Positions 295 to 37,093 of a stretch of DNA of 64,000 nucleotides are shown here, one piece after another. This DNA comes from SAR86 cluster bacterium (lineage in GTDB: Bacteria; Pseudomonadota; Gammaproteobacteria; Magnimaribacterales; D2472). The translations under genes were made by a program, and so were the position numbers. Under the pieces are notes generated by a model that was not told the DNA's origin, ran no database searches, and was given only the letters and a program-made list of their open reading frames with translations. Location: positions 522,315-586,314 of the forward strand of contig CP097971.1 of assembly GCA_023703615.1 (NCBI GenBank), given 5' to 3'. Every line of letters begins with the position of its first letter. Position 1 is the first letter of the stretch.

Positions 295-419
295 CGTGAT
301 CCCCTTAAATTTAGATATGATAAATATATATAAGAATTTAATAATTGAACTATATATAAAAAAAATACTAAAAAAAAGTATTTAAGTTAAATAAAAAAAA
401 TAAAGATCTTAGAAAGGTG

Positions 420-468: not shown

Positions 469-503
469 AAGGCAGCTAGTTAGGGGGGAGGATAAGCTGC
501 CTT
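469..503 (-). terminator. C-rich-loop terminator-like hairpin after amt
   Basis: Bases 469-477 and 495-503 form a perfect 9-bp stem. Read on the minus strand, the hairpin begins seven bases after the amt stop codon and is followed by UUUU, as in an intrinsic terminator. The 17-base loop is unusually C-rich on that strand, UAUCCUCCCCCCUAACU, and is complementary to purine-rich ribosome-binding sites. See the findings for a possible regulatory role. Confidence 0.6.
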
Positions 504-509
504 AATAAA

Positions 510-1757
510 TTATTTAAATTCTGGATATGATTCAACTCCTATCTCTGAAGCATCAAGACCCATGTCTTGCTCTTCATCAGTTGCTCTAATTGGCATAACC
601 ATATTGATTACAAATATAGTTATTAAACTTGCAACATAAGTGAATCCACCGATTGCAACTACTCCAGCAAACTGCATACCAAAGCTAGCATCTGATGTTA
701 AAGGTACAACCATAACACCAAAAATACCAACAATTCCGTGAGCAGAAATAGCACCAACTGGATCATCAATTTTAAGTGTCTTGTCTAGGAATAAAATTGA
801 AAAATAAACAATGACTCCACCAACAGCACCAATTAGCACAGCAGTACCACCACTTGGAGCACTTGGACCTGCAGTAATTGCAACTAGTCCTGCTATAGCA
901 CCATTAATAGCCATGGTTACATCCATTTTTCCTGTTAAAAAGAGACTAGTAAATAATGCAGCAACAACTCCACCTGCAGCAGCCATATTTGTATTTAAGA
1001 ATACTTGACTGACAGCAATAGCACTCGCTTCATCACTAACTATTAATTCTGAACCACCATTAAATCCAAACCATCCTAACCATAATATCCATGCACCAAG
1101 AGCTGCCATTGGAATATTTGATCCTGGCATAGCATTTGATGTGCCGTCGAAGTTATACTTACCTTTTCTAGCTCCTAGAACGGTAACAACTGCTAAAGCT
1201 GCAGCAGCACCACATAAATGCACTGTTCCTGAACCTGCGTAGTCTGAATAGCCACCTTGGCTTAAGAAACCACCACCCCAGTTCCAATAACCTTGGATAG
1301 GATAGATAAAGCCTGTAAGCACAATGGCAAATATAAAGAATGGTAATAATTTCATTCTTCCAGCAACTGCACCTGATACGATAGACATTGCTGTAGCAAC
1401 AAAGACTACTTGGAAAAAGAAGTCAGCTTGTTGTGAATAATCCATACCATACGGCATTCCAATTTCTTCGTTAGGTAACGATGTTGACAGGCTCCATGAT
1501 GTACCAATCGCAGGTAAATAACTCTCTAAAGCACCTCCAAATGCTCCACCACCTGGATACATAAGCATGAATCCACATGTTAAATACATGATACATGCTA
1601 TTGAATATAGTCCTAAGTTCTTAGTAACTATCTCTGAGACATCTTTCTTTTGAACAAGTCCTGCTTCTAGCATGGTAAAACCAGCTGCCATCCACATAAC
1701 AAGTGCTCCAGCCATAATGGCGTAGAAAGTGTCTAATGCAAATTTTACTTCTTCCAT
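510..1757 (-). CDS. amt: Ammonium transporter (Amt family)
   Basis: This 415-residue multi-pass inner-membrane channel moves ammonium into the cell. The two pore histidines are visible at H180 (SGTVHLCGA) and H340 (SAHGIVGIFG), and the cytoplasmic C-terminal tail has the usual acidic EEQDMGLDASEIG region involved in PII control. The N-terminus (WMAAGFTMLEAGLV) belongs to the Amt group lacking a signal peptide, unlike the AmtB-type partner downstream. An AGGAG site eight bases before the ATG supports the start. It lies 22 bases after the PII gene, the classic glnK-amt pair, so expression is expected to rise under nitrogen limitation (inference). Confidence 0.95.
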   Translation of the reverse strand: MEEVKFALDTFYAIMAGALVMWMAAGFTMLEAGLVQKKDVSEIVTKNLGLYSIACIMYLTCGFMLMYPGGGAFGGALESYLPAIGTSWSLSTSLPNEEIGMPYGMDYSQQADFFFQVVFVATAMSIVSGAVAGRMKLLPFFIFAIVLTGFIYPIQGYWNWGGGFLSQGGYSDYAGSGTVHLCGAAAALAVVTVLGARKGKYNFDGTSNAMPGSNIPMAALGAWILWLGWFGFNGGSELIVSDEASAIAVSQVFLNTNMAAAGGVVAALFTSLFLTGKMDVTMAINGAIAGLVAITAGPSAPSGGTAVLIGAVGGVIVYFSILFLDKTLKIDDPVGAISAHGIVGIFGVMVVPLTSDASFGMQFAGVVAIGGFTYVASLITIFVINMVMPIRATDEEQDMGLDASEIGVESYPEFK

Positions 1758-17416: not shown

Positions 17417-17458
17417 AAATGATCCCCTCATATTAAATATGTTTTATCATTATAAATT
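17417..17458. promoter_or_regulatory. Compact divergent promoter region
   Basis: Only 42 bases separate two divergent start codons. On the minus strand TATAAT (17449-17454) is followed by a leader of about 26 bases with the GAGGGGAT ribosome-binding site. On the plus strand the same AT-rich block would have to serve the hydrolase gene, which has no visible ribosome-binding site. Confidence 0.5.
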
Positions 17459-19440: not shown

Positions 19441-19474
19441 AACTAGAGTAGTATTACAAAAAGGGGGATATACT

Positions 19475-21799
19475 ATGTCTAGAATTTTATTAAAGCCGTT
19501 ATTCGAAAAAAAATCTGATCCATTAACGAACTTATTAAAAGATATTTTTAAGGAAAACAATTTTGCGCTTTCTTATTTGGGAGCACTTAGTTTGGGTATT
19601 GGTGTTTCATCAAATATTCAAGCCCAAGACAACATTGAAGAAGTTATCGTTACAGCTGCTAAGAAAGAACAGAATCTTCAAGATGTGGCTATGAGCGTTC
19701 AAGCAATATCTGCAGCAGATCTTGATGCAAAAAATGTTAAAGATTTAAGCGATATAGCATTTTTATCACCAGCAGTAACATTAGATGCAGGTGGTCCAGG
19801 AAACTCTACTTTTTATATAAGAGGTGTCTCTGATGGCGGTTTTGGAAATCCTTCAGGTGCAGCAACAACAACTGCTTTATATCTCGATGAACAGCCGTTA
19901 ACCACAATAGGTCAGACCCCAGATCTTCATGTTTATGATATTGAGAGAGTTGAAGTTCTTGCTGGTCCTCAAGGTACACTTTATGGGTCAAGTTCCACAT
20001 CAGGTAATATAAAAATTATTACAAAAAAACCAGATGTTAGCTCTGTAGACTATGGATTTGATATAGATTATGGAACAGTTAACAGTGGTGATATGGATAA
20101 ATCTTTAGAAGCATTTGTAAACCTTCCGTTAGGTGATGACTCAGCAATGAGAGTAAGTGCGTATAATTTAACAGATGGTGGATTCATTGATAACGTTCCT
20201 TCAACTATGACATTTACTAATTCAGGGGTGACTATAGATAATAACGATGTCGCTGAAGAAGACTACAATACATACGATAAGAAAGGACTAAGAACAAGAT
20301 TTTCTACATCAATTGGATCAACTGATCTTGATTTCTCTTTTCTAACACAAGAATCAAAATATGGCGGTTCACCAGAAACTGATGAGGCGGATGGACCAAG
20401 ATCTAATTCAAGATTTATAGAAGAATATTTTAATGATGATTTTGAACAAATGTCTTTAACTATTGCAGGAAACATAAGTGATGATATCGAATACATTTTT
20501 ACATCTTCATTTTTTGAAAGAGATGTTGAGTATATGTATGACTACTCGGAATATGTTGAATATTATAATTATGATGGACCAACTTATACTTGTGACTATT
20601 ATGACTATTACTATTACTATAATATTTCAGGTTGCCAAGATCCTAGAATGTCATATATGCAAAATGATAAATACGAGAGAACCTCTAATGAATTTAGAAT
20701 TCAATCAAATTCTGATTCCGGTTTTCAGTGGGTTCTTGGAGCATTTTCAGAAGATAACAGAAGAGATTATGAAATGGATTACCAATGGCCGGGTTCAAAT
20801 CCAGGCAATCTATCGTTTGGTGTACCAAATGGTAATTGGTGGAATCTTGATAATACAAGAGAAGAGGAAACTTCAGCTGTATTTGGTGAAGCCTCTTATG
20901 ACATAAATGATAAAACAAATATAACTGTTGGATTTAGAAATTATGATCAAGACACCGTTGTTGATGCAAAAGATGGATACTATGGTGTATTTGACGGTAC
21001 CAACAAAGTATATAGAAATAGTGATTCAGGAACTATCCCAAAAGTTAGTGTTTCTTACGATGTTGATGACGATATTATGATATATGGAGTTTACTCTGAA
21101 GGATTTAGAGCCAGCGGTATAAATAGAGTAAGACCAGCGCAAACAGCATTCATTCCTGAGCTCTTTGATGCTGATTATCTTGAAAGCCTTGAGTTTGGTT
21201 TTAAATCAACTTTAGCTGATGGGAAACTTATTTTAAATGGTGCTGCATATTTTATGGATTGGAATGACTATCAATCCACTCAATATAATCTTGCTTATTC
21301 AACTGTTTCATTTGTAGATAATGTAGGAAATGCAGAAATAAATGGTATTGAAATTGACGCTACATATAAGGTAGATGATACTTTAACCTTGAATGCATTT
21401 GTAATATCAAATGATCCAACATTATCTGAGGATTATTTTGATGTGTCTGGAGTTCTCCAGGCAAGTTCAGGAAATAGATTAGCATATGTACCTGAAACAT
21501 CTTACGTTTTAAGTTTAGATAAAGTATTTGAAATTATGGGAAGACCTAGTTATTTCAACTTGGATTATTCATATACTGGAGATAGATATGATTCTCAAGC
21601 TAATACTGTTACTTTACCAGAATATTCCATTGGTAATATGAGACTGGGTGTTGAGAACGAAAACTCTTCAATGGAACTCTACATCACAAACTTTACAGAT
21701 GAAGTTGCGTATTTAACTAGGTATCCTGACTTTAATAACATTAGAAGAACACCTAATAGACCCAGAGTAATTGGATTTAGAATAAGATATAGATATTAG
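19475..21799 (+). CDS. TonB-dependent receptor with tyrosine-rich extracellular loop
   Basis: This 774-residue outer-membrane receptor has a long N-terminal extension before its signal core (hydrophobic FALSYLGALSLGIGVS, cleavage after IQAQ), then a TonB box (EEVIVTAAKK) and a plug ending LAGPQGTLYGSSSTSGNIKIITKKP. The barrel ends in GFRIRYRY. Residues 353-388 form a loop in which 15 of the first 30 residues are tyrosine, mixed with Asp/Glu and closed by cysteines 373 and 387. The receptor at 30293 has a cysteine pair in the same region. The ligand is unknown. The start has AAGGGGGATA upstream. Confidence 0.92.
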   Translation: MSRILLKPLFEKKSDPLTNLLKDIFKENNFALSYLGALSLGIGVSSNIQAQDNIEEVIVTAAKKEQNLQDVAMSVQAISAADLDAKNVKDLSDIAFLSPAVTLDAGGPGNSTFYIRGVSDGGFGNPSGAATTTALYLDEQPLTTIGQTPDLHVYDIERVEVLAGPQGTLYGSSSTSGNIKIITKKPDVSSVDYGFDIDYGTVNSGDMDKSLEAFVNLPLGDDSAMRVSAYNLTDGGFIDNVPSTMTFTNSGVTIDNNDVAEEDYNTYDKKGLRTRFSTSIGSTDLDFSFLTQESKYGGSPETDEADGPRSNSRFIEEYFNDDFEQMSLTIAGNISDDIEYIFTSSFFERDVEYMYDYSEYVEYYNYDGPTYTCDYYDYYYYYNISGCQDPRMSYMQNDKYERTSNEFRIQSNSDSGFQWVLGAFSEDNRRDYEMDYQWPGSNPGNLSFGVPNGNWWNLDNTREEETSAVFGEASYDINDKTNITVGFRNYDQDTVVDAKDGYYGVFDGTNKVYRNSDSGTIPKVSVSYDVDDDIMIYGVYSEGFRASGINRVRPAQTAFIPELFDADYLESLEFGFKSTLADGKLILNGAAYFMDWNDYQSTQYNLAYSTVSFVDNVGNAEINGIEIDATYKVDDTLTLNAFVISNDPTLSEDYFDVSGVLQASSGNRLAYVPETSYVLSLDKVFEIMGRPSYFNLDYSYTGDRYDSQANTVTLPEYSIGNMRLGVENENSSMELYITNFTDEVAYLTRYPDFNNIRRTPNRPRVIGFRIRYRY

Positions 21800-30248: not shown

Positions 30249-30292
30249 GTATATGCAATTTAATATTAATTATTATATGAGGGGTCATATAT

Positions 30293-32722
30293 ATGTTTAA
30301 TTTAACTAATACAAAAGAACAGCTTAATAAGGTTCTCAATAAAGTATCTTTAGGTGTTTTAGGTTCATTTGCAGCAATTGTTCCGCAAACTGCTGAAGCA
30401 CAAGATCGTCAAATCGAAGAAGTAGTTGTTTCTGCTACTAAGAAAGACGAAAGCGCATCAAAGATACCAGTTACTGTTACAGCGCTAACTGAAGAAACAT
30501 TAAAGGAAATGAATGTATCTAACTTTGACGAATACATTGAATACCTTCCAAATGTTACAAACGCTGGTAGGGGTCCTGGACAATCAACTATCTATATTAG
30601 AGGTATGGCTGTTGATCCTGTTAATGTCTTTTTATCAGCCGCTCAAGGATCAACTCCTAACGTTGCTTTGTACTTAGATGAGCAACCATTGCAAGTTCCA
30701 GGAAGAAATTTGGATATTTATATTGCTGATATGGAAAGAATCGAAGTCTTACCTGGACCACAAGGAACATTGTATGGAGCAAGTTCACAAGCAGGTACTG
30801 TAAGACTTATAACAAATAAGCCTAAATTTAATACAACTGAAGGTGGAATAAACACTTCAGTGTTTGAAACAAAAAGTGGTGATGTAAGTAGATCATATGA
30901 TGTTTATTTCAATGCACCTTTAATTAGTGATGAATGGGCGATAAGAGGCGTATTTTATAATGCTAAAAATGGTGGTTATATTGATAATGTTCCAGGAACA
31001 TGGAGTGGTGAAGGTAGAGGTTCATTCCCATCAGGTGGAACAACTACTTTTGAAGTAGATGATAACGCTGCTTTAGTAGAAGAAAACTTCAATGATTCAG
31101 AATATACTGGTTTTAGAATTTCTTCAGCTCATTCTATAAATGATGATTGGGAAATGCTTATTACTCATTTAGATCAAGATCTGAGTGCTGACGGTGTTTT
31201 TGATTATGACCCTGCCAAAGGTGACTTATTAGTAAGCAGATTTGTTGAAGATACTCTTGATGATTCATTCTCACAAACTTCATTAACTCTTGAAGGAAGA
31301 TTGGGTAAACTTGATGCTTTATATACTGGAGCATATTTAGATAGAACTTCTAATCAAACTGTAGACTATAGTGGTTATGCAAATGTTGGTGCATGGTTGC
31401 CATACTATGTATGTAATGCATATGTTTATACATTATGTGGTTCTGCTACTGTTCAAGTAGATTTAATGGATAGTAATGAAAGAACTACCCATGAGTTTAG
31501 GGTATCTACAAATGAATTTTGGGATTCACCAGTAACTTTTACAGCAGGTGTTTTTATTGATGATAGTCAATTAATTACTCAAAACGATTATGGATACCTA
31601 GGTACACTTGATACTCCAGCTGCTATAGCAGGCTGGGGTGCATATTATATTGCTAACTCACCAATACCTGGTGCATATGCTTCAAATCCAAATCCAAGAC
31701 CAATGCAATACAGATTCTTTAATGATATTTTAAGAACTGAGGAGCAAACTGCATATTTTGCTGAAGTTACTTATCCATTATCAGATAGACTTGATATAAC
31801 TGTTGGTGCTCGTAATTATGATTTAGATGTTGACTTTAGAGGGCAATCTAAATTTGGTTATAGAGGAGCTAATGTTGCAAATGGAAGAGACTATGATGCT
31901 GGAGTTCATGGAACAGAGCCGCTAAATATGAGTGATACCATAACTAAGGTTACTGTTAGCTTTCAACAAGATGAAGATACTCTCTATTACTTTACAAGAT
32001 CAGAGGGGTATAGACCTGGTGGATTTAATAGAGGAGGTCTACTCGCTTCAAGAAACGCAGCATATGCGTCACCTCCATTAACATATGGAACAGACGATAC
32101 TATAAACACAGAGTTTGGTGTCAAAACAGTATTGCTTGATGGCTCAATGAGACTTAATGCAACATACTATGATGTTGACTGGTCTGATATTCAAACATCA
32201 AGATTTGATCCCGTTAATATTTCAATATTAACATTTATAGAAAATGCAGCTGACGCATCAGTTAGTGGTTTCGAAGCCGATGTATTATGGTATCCAACTG
32301 ATAATCTTACGTTATCAAGTGCCGTTACTGTTAATGATACCGAGGTTACACGTTTAAAAGCTCAAATTATTGAAATTGCACCTGTAGGTAGTCAGCTACC
32401 ACTATCACCAGAGGTTCAATGGAATTTAAGAATGAGATATGACTCAGAATTTGGAGGTAATCCAAGTTATACACAAATAGCAATAAAAAGTGCTGATGAA
32501 TCCTTTAGTTCACTTGAACAGGAAAAAAGATATCAACAAGATGCATACAAGATTCTTGATATGGCTTGGGGTATTCAAGTAGGAAACACAGATGTAGAAT
32601 TTTTTGCTAGAAATGTCACTGATGAAAGAGCTCAACTATACTTTAATGACCAAGATGATATTCCTAGAATATCTACTAATAGACCAAGGAATGTTGGTGT
32701 TAGAGTATCATATAGTTTTTAA
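30293..32722 (+). CDS. TonB-dependent receptor
   Basis: This 809-residue outer-membrane receptor has a long N-terminal stretch before its signal core (VSLGVLGSFAAIVPQTAEAQ), then a TonB box (IEEVVVSATKKDES) and plug ending LPGPQGTLYGASSQAGTVRLITNKP. The barrel ends GVRVSYSF. It is a clear paralogue of the protein at 19475, including matching plug residues and a cysteine pair in the loop PYYVCNAYVYTLCGS, but without the tyrosine expansion. Ligand unknown. GAGGGG precedes the ATG. A TPR-sulfotransferase gene follows. Confidence 0.92.
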   Translation: MFNLTNTKEQLNKVLNKVSLGVLGSFAAIVPQTAEAQDRQIEEVVVSATKKDESASKIPVTVTALTEETLKEMNVSNFDEYIEYLPNVTNAGRGPGQSTIYIRGMAVDPVNVFLSAAQGSTPNVALYLDEQPLQVPGRNLDIYIADMERIEVLPGPQGTLYGASSQAGTVRLITNKPKFNTTEGGINTSVFETKSGDVSRSYDVYFNAPLISDEWAIRGVFYNAKNGGYIDNVPGTWSGEGRGSFPSGGTTTFEVDDNAALVEENFNDSEYTGFRISSAHSINDDWEMLITHLDQDLSADGVFDYDPAKGDLLVSRFVEDTLDDSFSQTSLTLEGRLGKLDALYTGAYLDRTSNQTVDYSGYANVGAWLPYYVCNAYVYTLCGSATVQVDLMDSNERTTHEFRVSTNEFWDSPVTFTAGVFIDDSQLITQNDYGYLGTLDTPAAIAGWGAYYIANSPIPGAYASNPNPRPMQYRFFNDILRTEEQTAYFAEVTYPLSDRLDITVGARNYDLDVDFRGQSKFGYRGANVANGRDYDAGVHGTEPLNMSDTITKVTVSFQQDEDTLYYFTRSEGYRPGGFNRGGLLASRNAAYASPPLTYGTDDTINTEFGVKTVLLDGSMRLNATYYDVDWSDIQTSRFDPVNISILTFIENAADASVSGFEADVLWYPTDNLTLSSAVTVNDTEVTRLKAQIIEIAPVGSQLPLSPEVQWNLRMRYDSEFGGNPSYTQIAIKSADESFSSLEQEKRYQQDAYKILDMAWGIQVGNTDVEFFARNVTDERAQLYFNDQDDIPRISTNRPRNVGVRVSYSF

Positions 32723-34773: not shown

Positions 34774-35154
34774 ATGATAGAAATTATTTTAATAACAGGT
34801 ATATTTTATTTACTTCAACTTTTAACACCGATGACATTATCATTAACTAAAGTCTCTATGTTTGATTTTTTATCAACAGCTAAAGAGCCAATTAGTTATT
34901 CAGACTCAGCACTAAGAGCACAAAGGGCCTTAAATAATTTTAAAGAATCACTTCCGTTCTTTTTAGTAATTTCGGTATTGTCAATACTACTCAGTGTAGA
35001 CAACACAGCACTTGCAAGCAATTGGTTGATAGTAAGAGTAATTTACTTATTTTTAGCAATAATGAACTTTTATAAGTATCCTTATATTAGAACACCTCTT
35101 TGGTTTGTCTCAATAGGTATTTTAATTTCTATGGGGTTAAATTTAGTTGCATAA
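34774..35154 (+). CDS. MAPEG-family membrane protein
   Basis: This 126-residue four-helix protein has the MAPEG mark RAQRALNNFKESLPFFLVISVL, with the helix-2 arginine and asparagine-phenylalanine pattern used in glutathione binding. Bacterial members may conjugate or reduce lipid peroxides, but many are uncharacterised. A five-codon mini-ORF starts at 34760 and overlaps the ATG region; I regard it as chance. The hairpin at 35157 begins right after the stop codon. Confidence 0.8.
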   Translation: MIEIILITGIFYLLQLLTPMTLSLTKVSMFDFLSTAKEPISYSDSALRAQRALNNFKESLPFFLVISVLSILLSVDNTALASNWLIVRVIYLFLAIMNFYKYPYIRTPLWFVSIGILISMGLNLVA

Positions 35155-35262
35155 AAAATGCGACCTTTATATTTGAGGGGATAACAAAGGTCGCATTACT
35201 GTTTTAAGAGCTTTAAAAGGGGGATTGCCTAGATTGCTCTATATCAAAGTCCTATTAAACTT
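35151..35262 (-). ncRNA. Candidate small RNA with two C-rich anti-Shine-Dalgarno loops
   Basis: On the minus strand a perfect TATAAT (35267-35272) could start a transcript near 35260. It would hold a hairpin with a C-rich loop (35207-35240), then a 12-bp terminator-type hairpin (35157-35197) with loop GUUAUCCCCUCAAAUAU, then a U-run at 35158-35152. The architecture resembles anti-Shine-Dalgarno (cuckoo-type) sRNAs of rhizobia. No good -35 was seen. There is no transcript evidence, and the second hairpin could simply terminate the MAPEG gene on the plus strand. Confidence 0.3.
35157..35197. terminator. 12-bp hairpin after MAPEG gene
   Basis: AATGCGACCTTT (35157-35168) pairs perfectly with AAAGGTCGCATT (35186-35197) around a 17-base loop. 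The U-tract is better on the minus strand (TTTTTT directly after the stem) than on the plus strand, where ACTGTTTT follows. It could act both ways. Confidence 0.6.
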
Positions 35263-35268
35263 TGATAT
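35241..35268. repeat. 10-bp perfect inverted repeat
   Basis: ATATCAAAGT (35241-35250) and ACTTTGATAT (35259-35268) flank an 8-base spacer and touch the TATAAT elements present on both strands at 35267-35274. This could be an operator or a hairpin at the start of the candidate sRNA. Confidence 0.5.
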
Positions 35269-35389
35269 TATAATTAGATAATATATGTGAAACATTTTTA
35301 TGAAGAAAATGTCACTTTTATGTATATTAATGTGTCAAATCATATATTATTTTACAGTTACTAAAAATTTAAAATTTAAAATTATTACT

Positions 35390-35821
35390 ATGAACTTACA
35401 AAGAACACTTTTATTATTTTTTATTATCGTTATACCCTTAGAAGCAGTTAAATATGACAAATTAAAACCAAATGTTCTTTATGATAGAGCAGTCAAATAT
35501 CTTGATAACGAAAATTTTACAAAAGCACTCAAAGCTTTAAAAACTTACACTAAATCTCAACCGAACGATGCTGATGGTTGGAATTTATATGGTTATACAT
35601 CAAGAAAAATGGGTAAATTTGATAAAGCAAAAATTTATTATGATAAGGCTCTTGAAATTGATCCTAACCACAAAGGAGCGCTCGAATATCAGGGTGAGCT
35701 ATTTATACAAACAAACAGAATTGATTTAGCATATCAAAACTTAAATAAACTTGATGAACTATGCCCGAACTCATGTTTTGAGCTTGAACAGCTGAAAGAA
35801 TCATTATTAAAATATAAATAA
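35390..35821 (+). CDS. Secreted TPR protein
   Basis: This 143-residue protein has a signal peptide (MNLQRTLLLFFIIVIPLEA) and about three TPR units, such as LYDRAVKYLDNENFTKALKALKTY and WNLYGYTSRKMGKFDKAKIYYDKALEIDPNHKGALEYQGEL. It is probably periplasmic and acts as a small binding scaffold. The open frame reaches upstream to 35300, but those 30 codons are AT-rich and the ATG at 35390 restores a normal signal peptide. It precedes a hydrolase gene by 26 bases. Confidence 0.75.
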   Translation: MNLQRTLLLFFIIVIPLEAVKYDKLKPNVLYDRAVKYLDNENFTKALKALKTYTKSQPNDADGWNLYGYTSRKMGKFDKAKIYYDKALEIDPNHKGALEYQGELFIQTNRIDLAYQNLNKLDELCPNSCFELEQLKESLLKYK

Positions 35822-35847
35822 AGTTGTAACCATTAAGATTTTGTAAA

Positions 35848-36681
35848 GTGAAAAAAATAATCATCTTTTTTATTTTTATAATCTCATCTTTATACCTAAT
35901 AACCGACGAAATAGTTTTCCCTGAAGAATATTCTTATGGAGATAATATTTCTCAAAAAATTGATTTGTATAGAGGAAAATCAGATAAAGTTCTTGTTTGG
36001 ATTCACGGCGGTGGATGGTTGTTTGGTAACAAAAGAGCAGAAAGATGGATAAATAGATTTGAGAATCATTTTGTTGACAATAAGGATCATAATGTATTTA
36101 TGATAGGTTACAGAATTGGTAGAAATACTGCTCCAAATGCAGTTGAAGATGTTTTATGTGCTTATAATAAAATTCTTGAAATTAGTTTTAGTGAAGGCTT
36201 TTCAACAGATGATGTAATTGTTGCAGGTGCTAGTGCTGGAGGCCATTTAGCTCTTCTTATTGGTTTATATGATCAAAGAAACGTCAGTTTATGCAAGATT
36301 AATAATAAACCAAAGGCGGTAATAAATTTATTTGGTATAACTGACATAAAAAAAACTTCTGACTATTTAGATGCAGAAAAGTTTTTTACTGCATTAAACT
36401 ATGTTAAAACCTGGATATTACCAGATAAAGATCTTGAAAAAATTTCACTTAATTATTCGCCAATCAATATGACTGTTATTAAAGCTCCAAATTTTTTAAC
36501 TATACACGGCACCAAAGACTCATGGGTGCCATATAATCAAGCAGTATTACTAGACACTAAACTTCAGGAAAATCATAAATTGTTAACTATTGATAATGGA
36601 CGACATTATAGATTTAGTGAAAGTCAAAATGAATTAATAAGAACTGAAATAAAAAAATTTATTGATATTAACTATAATTAA
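35848..36681 (+). CDS. Secreted or anchored alpha/beta hydrolase (carboxylesterase/BD-FAE type)
   Basis: This 277-residue protein starts with a hydrophobic N-terminus (IIIFFIFIISSLYLI) that is a signal peptide or anchor. It has the HGGG oxyanion motif (WIHGGGWLFG, residues 51-60), nucleophile S129 in GASAGG, the acid in GTKDSWVPY and histidine in GRHYRF. Those features fit the BD-FAE / esterase-lipase group acting on feruloyl or acetyl esters. The start is GTG at 35848; no ATG is near. Confidence 0.8.
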   Translation: MKKIIIFFIFIISSLYLITDEIVFPEEYSYGDNISQKIDLYRGKSDKVLVWIHGGGWLFGNKRAERWINRFENHFVDNKDHNVFMIGYRIGRNTAPNAVEDVLCAYNKILEISFSEGFSTDDVIVAGASAGGHLALLIGLYDQRNVSLCKINNKPKAVINLFGITDIKKTSDYLDAEKFFTALNYVKTWILPDKDLEKISLNYSPINMTVIKAPNFLTIHGTKDSWVPYNQAVLLDTKLQENHKLLTIDNGRHYRFSESQNELIRTEIKKFIDINYN

Positions 36682-36689
36682 ATCAATAT

Positions 36690-37037
36690 TTAATTAAGAG
36701 CTCGTTCAACTCTTCTTGTTCCTCTATGAACACAGCTCAAGTTTGAAGTATCATTGTCAATAAGAGTAATTATTTCATGATTAAACATACAAAAATTCTG
36801 AATAAGATCCGTAATATATACTTTACTGACGTCAGCTTCTAAGAAACTTGTTACTGATAGAATGTCATATTTTTTACATTGTACAATTTTTTCAATTGCA
36901 TAATTATAAGGATCAAGAGAGTTTTGAAGTCTTTTGGTAATAATCACTGAACACTTATTATCAAAATCAGCATATGTGTATGCCGACAGAAATAAAAAAG
37001 AAAATAAAACAACGAAACTATAAATTTTATTTATCAT
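36690..37037 (-). CDS. Small cysteine-containing secreted protein, unknown function
   Basis: This 115-residue protein has a signal peptide (VVLFSFLFLSAYTYA) and four cysteines in the mature part (CSVII, VQCKKYD, NFCMFN, LSCVHRG), consistent with two disulfides. The product ends RRVERALN. I do not recognise a family. The ATG at 37037 is preferred over a TTG two codons earlier. It converges on the BD-FAE-type hydrolase and diverges from the PDZ gene. Confidence 0.6.
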   Translation of the reverse strand: MINKIYSFVVLFSFLFLSAYTYADFDNKCSVIITKRLQNSLDPYNYAIEKIVQCKKYDILSVTSFLEADVSKVYITDLIQNFCMFNHEIITLIDNDTSNLSCVHRGTRRVERALN

Positions 37038-37093
37038 AAACAATATTAATTATTATATACTAATGGCTTAATGATTATTAAGGATACAACTTC

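Follow-up and report, generated by a model that had tools for sequence, protein, structure and literature searches.

A MAPEG-linked RNA element with C-rich loops in SAR86 bacteria, a second small RNA of the same kind, and G-rich ribosome-binding sites of TonB-dependent receptors

The cuckoo RNAs of alphaproteobacteria carry anti-Shine-Dalgarno sequences in hairpin loops, occur in several copies per genome, and are recognized by a CCUCCUCCC motif and a characteristic genomic setting. In Xanthomonas, a design in which CCCC loops are directed against G-rich target sites has been established experimentally for the small RNA sX13 (PMC3771888). HPnc5490 (RepG) of Helicobacter pylori, as described there, directs a UCCCCCU loop at a G-run of the tlpB leader (PMC3771888).

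We analyzed a 64,000-nt stretch of DNA (the window) from the genome of a member of SAR86, a lineage of marine bacteria that are uncultured and have small genomes, together with genomes of its relatives, and describe a candidate small RNA in the window (type A) and a second one in the same genome (type B). The original prediction had likened the type A locus to a cuckoo-type RNA; the design of anti-Shine-Dalgarno hairpin loops, with several copies per genome, is indeed shared, whereas the CCUCCUCCC motif was absent from the type A loops (AAUCCCCCUUUU and UUAUCCCCUCAAAU) and from the type B loop (CUCCUCUCCCC, which comes closer to it than type A does), and the cuckoo genomic setting was not found for the SAR86 RNAs. 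The cuckoo RNAs are a looser parallel than sX13 and HPnc5490. sX13 is likewise a short, strongly structured gammaproteobacterial RNA with CCCC/CCCCC hairpin loops, and its targets, like the candidate SAR86 targets, carry GGGG at the ribosome-binding site or close to the start codon; however, it has three stable stems of other make-up, and its regulon (motility, virulence, hfq) differs from the SAR86 receptor set (PMC3771888). The UCCCCCU loop of HPnc5490 is almost the SAR86 loop core, but this RNA comes from a distant phylum and has one main target (PMC3771888). The SAR86 RNAs share the design of sX13, and no common descent with sX13, HPnc5490 or the cuckoo RNAs is claimed. Conserved hairpins with an apical loop of CCCC or longer, as expected of this functional kind, were present in both types; G-runs near the start codons of candidate targets were also present, and genomes lacking the RNA have them too. 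None of 4227 Rfam families exceeded its gathering score on the window or on the element (the latter searched to E 10), and by sequence the element fits none of the described families open to comparison. In titles and abstract openings, a literature search on SAR86 small RNAs and SAR86 TonB-dependent receptors found no SAR86 small RNA, and one on C-rich RNAs acting on TonB receptors found no description of this system.

The type A element is located between a MAPEG-family gene and a TPR gene (35300-35821, plus strand; start uncertain), and its features are listed in Table 1. The TATAAT, the two hairpins with C-rich loops and the U-run that had been predicted on the minus strand were all found in the sequence, and the element folds on this strand with -36.3 kcal/mol (z -6.96), a stability reached by none of 200 dinucleotide shuffles. 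The arms of the terminator hairpin (35197-35186 and 35168-35157) enclose a loop of 17 nt, whereas the preceding weak hairpin pairs AGAGC (35240-35236) with GCUCU (35211-35207) around a 24-nt loop. Promoter prediction called nothing before the TATAAT, and no good -35 was seen there. The inverted repeat overlapping this box is possibly an operator or, given a transcription start further upstream, a 5′ hairpin. Since the plus strand of the element folds almost equally well (z -5.36), folding does not assign its strand. Hairpins of at least 8 pairs with a CCCC loop numbered only 3 in 444 kb of the genome (the window and 19 stretches of 20 kb), and a covariance model of the element had exactly 3 matches at E <= 1 in the whole 1.23-Mb genome, a count that omits a second type B copy, which the model misses. 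The other C-rich-loop hairpin of the window, at 469-503, sits behind an amt-like gene (510-1757, minus strand) and between two such genes, the second of which has a AAGGGGAU site; its loop may act on the neighboring amt-like gene in cis.

Table 1. Features of the window and, where a contig is named, of the rest of its genome (G000).
Feature	Position	Strand	Remark
AGGGGAT before ATG (294) of amt-like gene; candidate target	299..305	-	gene name from original prediction
Second C-rich-loop hairpin of window, loop UAUCCUCCCCCCUAACU	469..503	-	same hairpin kind; found by hairpin scan and covariance model
GAGGGGAT before ATG (17416) of KAS III-like gene; candidate target	17422..17429	-	gene name from original prediction
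AAAAGGGGGAT, ribosome-binding site of TonB-dependent receptor (19475-21799); candidate target	19459..19469	+	11-nt complement of loop 1
GAGGGG in ribosome-binding site of TonB-dependent receptor (30293-32722); candidate target	30279..30284	+	
MAPEG-family gene	34774..35154	+	stop codon abuts element
U6 run of intrinsic terminator	35153..35158	-	read from sequence
Terminator hairpin, 12 bp, loop GUUAUCCCCUCAAAUAU (35169-35185)	35157..35197	-	core UCCCC retained in relatives
Weak first hairpin, 5 bp, C-rich loop AAUCCCCCUUUU (35215-35226)	35207..35240	-	
Inverted repeat ATATCAAAG...CTTTGATAT	35241..35268	-	overlaps -10 box
TATAAT, candidate -10 box	35267..35272	-	no convincing -35
Type B copy 1	G000 C1:61541-61615		
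Type B copy 2	G000 C1:790880-790950		at C1:790889; missed by model R3

A DNA search with the element in 107 genomes of the family returned only the element itself and two chance pieces, because the stems diverge too fast; synteny with the MAPEG gene, whose stop codon abuts the element, was therefore used instead. A MAPEG-like match was obtained in 89 of the 107 genomes, and the scan of the downstream region covered 30 of these loci and 40 further stretches (one of the latter a dummy and one repeating a genome). A minus-strand hairpin with a CCCC loop was found directly behind orthologous MAPEG genes in 21 SAR86 genomes, namely the window's genome, G077, nine genomes of genus g9 and ten further genomes of genus g8, while many MAPEG loci had no space for the element because the next gene abuts. 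Stems varied among relatives and the loop core UCCCC was kept: double changes occurred at 9/9 stem pairs, and 98.1% of cells were paired as compared with 29-57% in slid versions of the alignment, which was fitted to the model, and so biased towards it, and held 12 diverse hairpins (11 of type A and one of type B). The compensatory changes that the original prediction had proposed to look for are present in this alignment, and the loops, which could have varied freely in close relatives, retained CCCC in the 21 genomes. From this combination of compensatory stem changes and a preserved CCCC loop, we conclude that the MAPEG-linked hairpin is a real RNA element.

In genus g9, the position of the window's weak first hairpin was occupied by a 7-bp hairpin with a CUCCU(C) loop, and a promoter-like block (TTAACA-16-TAATAT) was invariant in 6/6 genomes next to a variable linker. 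A U-run right behind the stem was seen in only some relatives. Model R1, built from the g9 type, gave strong scores in g9 and weak matches otherwise; none of the weak matches inspected (L070-L086, two of them empty) contained a C-rich-loop hairpin. At an unrelated site in genome G053 (L238, C2:234345), whose MAPEG locus is without the element, a CCCC-loop terminator hairpin with a U-run was observed; the element is possibly mobile or of repeated origin.

Type B appears, from its sequence, to be a newly found second small RNA, better conserved than type A. It consists of a promoter (TTGATA, 16 nt, TATAAT), a 5′ hairpin (TGTCAGCA / TGCTGACA) with a near-invariant CUCCUCUCCCC loop, read as CUCCUCUCCCC(C)UAUU, and a terminator (loci L166, L272 and L286 in the window's genome; further loci, L265-L305). 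Of 40 genomes searched with the general hairpin model R3, 19 had a match at E <= 1; its three matches in the window's genome were the type A element, the hairpin at 469-503 and C1:61541, the last being itself part of the R3 alignment. Counterparts of C1:61541 in genera g7, g8 and g9 have all the parts of a well-formed gene for a small RNA. The loop pattern of type B was detected in 90/203 genomes of the order, as compared with 39 for the reversed control pattern, and by genus in 7/7 genomes of g7, 31/34 of g8, 16/18 of g9 and 20/21 of g22, which belongs to another family. Type B is widespread: most members of three SAR86 genera have it, and it recurs in a further family of this order. Inspection of 50 of the 106 loci matching the loop pattern showed the anatomy of promoter, hairpin and terminator in 38 and its absence in 12. 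Among 30 aligned copies, double changes were present at four stem pairs and the loop was nearly invariant, a constancy that stems partly from their selection by the loop pattern. Type B was located near gpx in G000, G053, G049 and G190; the names of gpx and of the adjoining fatty-acid gene are presumed from the protein sequences. An Rfam search of 10 loci of both RNAs gave only a tRNA over the cut-off.

We favor, with moderate confidence, the interpretation that type A is a minus-strand, trans-acting small RNA with a C-run seed, which together with type B belongs to a SAR86 set of C-rich-loop RNAs pairing with GGGG/AGGGGA sites. The predicted gene would be short, producing an RNA of about 105-110 nt that ends at its own intrinsic terminator, with the seed in the loop of the terminator hairpin and a second C-run in the preceding hairpin. 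The C-loop would pair with GGGG/AGGGGA ribosome-binding sites, above all those of TonB-dependent receptors but also that of amt, and would block translation, as sX13 does in Xanthomonas. The complements previously noted before the KAS III-like gene and amt do exist ahead of their ATGs; as bare strings in the window neither is rare (AGGGGAT, 4 seen and 4.58 expected; GAGGGGAT, 2 seen and 0.82 expected). The best pairing, missing from the original prediction, is between loop 1 and the ribosome-binding site ahead of the TonB receptor at 19475, with complementarity over 11 nt (AUCCCCCUUUU). In an energy ranking of 415 genes of the window's genome, the four best partners of loop 1 were all receptors, and the best partners of loop 2 were receptors, the KAS III-like gene, an FtsZ-like gene and others. 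Dinucleotide-shuffled loops came close to the same separation of receptors, with the observed value reached by 38, 22 and 12 of 200 shuffles. The ranking does not show that the exact order of the loop matters.

In eight SAR86 samples, GGGG was present at the ribosome-binding site of 44/80 TonB-dependent receptor genes as compared with 20/592 other genes, a pooled comparison whose p value overstates the case because related genomes share ancestry; in the window's genome alone the figures were 9/17 and 11/398 (p 3.6e-9). Receptors (loci L185-L201 and L306-L365) were defined by Pfam Plug hits, with starts picked by script and uncurated, and receptor-like frames identified by pattern but without a Plug hit were excluded from both classes. 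For the other genomes, the count covers those Plug hits that were both listed and retrieved, and 30 further receptors (L202-L231) were viewed but remained uncounted. The 3′ end of the 16S rRNA is ordinary (GGATCACCTCCTTA), and the common ribosome-binding sites are AGGAG-like.

The same signature was found in 13/26 receptors of three sampled genomes without either RNA (G006, G010 and G033), as compared with 31/54 in the rest, and its occurrence does not track that of the RNAs. It is conceivable, although we think it somewhat improbable, that the RNA exists but has other targets, and that GGGG before receptors simply enhances the translation of outer-membrane genes with strong expression. Canonical strong sites are also somewhat commoner in receptors (22/80 vs. 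53/592 other genes), and G-rich motifs of Xanthomonas enhance translation by themselves (PMC3771888). Against this alternative, the preference for GGGG over canonical sites is far stronger in receptors (44:22) than in other genes (20:52), and loop 1 matches one receptor site over 11 nt. A search for a C-loop RNA in lineages without type A or B, covering 400 kb from genomes G010 and G033 together with 26 loci (<=6.4 kb) of genera g3/g5, yielded none with both promoter and terminator; the matches there look like coding sequence only, so the GGGG sites of these lineages are so far without a partner. Since the signature is equal without the RNAs and shuffled loops do nearly as well, specific targeting of receptors by these RNAs is unproven; the match is one of C-runs with G-runs, which does not prove that the RNAs act on receptor messages. 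The silencing of many messages put forward in the original prediction would fit the strong enrichment of G-rich sites before TonB-dependent receptors, but this enrichment is equal in SAR86 genomes without the RNA.

It is unlikely that the element is only a terminator without trans action, either of a minus-strand transcript or shared by convergent genes. A convergent minus-strand gene does adjoin the element in relatives, and a similar terminator stands elsewhere in G053 (L238); in the window, however, TPR and esterase-like genes (35300-36681, plus strand) separate the element from this direct neighbor (36690-37043, minus strand), so that there it cannot be merely the tail of the neighboring gene. 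Moreover, a plain terminator has no reason for keeping UCCCC while its stem changes, and the genome has very few hairpins with a CCCC loop. The U6, the TATAAT and the promoter-like block of g9 all favor the minus strand. The occurrence in 21 genomes and the covarying stem with its retained loop give good support to a conserved RNA on the minus strand whose loops are anti-Shine-Dalgarno. The most improbable alternative is that the element acts on the plus strand, either as CsrB/RsmY-like hairpins whose AGGGGA/GAGGAG loops would capture a CsrA-like protein or as the 3′ end of the MAPEG message: it always lies directly behind the MAPEG stop codon, has GGA in its plus-strand loops, folds well on that strand and lacks a clean U-run on the minus strand of several relatives, but the window has its U6 on the minus strand and none on the plus, the g9 block is on the minus strand, stem mismatches read as G-U 4 times on the minus strand and once on the plus (identical hairpins entered once; not significant, p 0.375), and the loop of type B, which is similar in kind, has its C's on the transcribed strand. 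The CsrB-like interpretation was ranked lower, the strand evidence favoring minus; a pattern search for CsrA, which covered roughly one third of the window's genome, found none.

Returning to type A as a minus-strand, trans-acting RNA, its relation to type B may extend further. The two RNAs, unrelated in sequence and linked to MAPEG and gpx, respectively, might, through the C-run seed that they share, jointly restrain the TonB-dependent receptors, and the sites of these receptors would have become GGGG across the order; we regard this as a tentative idea that is rather less probable than the small RNA itself. If it is true, the outer-membrane uptake regulon of a streamlined genome would be written in its ribosome-binding sites. 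Independently of any RNA, the presence of GGGG at receptor sites is itself a finding, one that has to be explained even should the RNA not be its cause. Type B, as a clean and widespread gene, can be searched for at once in existing ocean metatranscriptomes. The GGGG-type site is especially common before the nutrient-receptor genes of SAR86, and a C-run loop could switch such messages off; if the pairing is true, small RNAs would be linked, through these receptors, to the uptake of dissolved organic matter.
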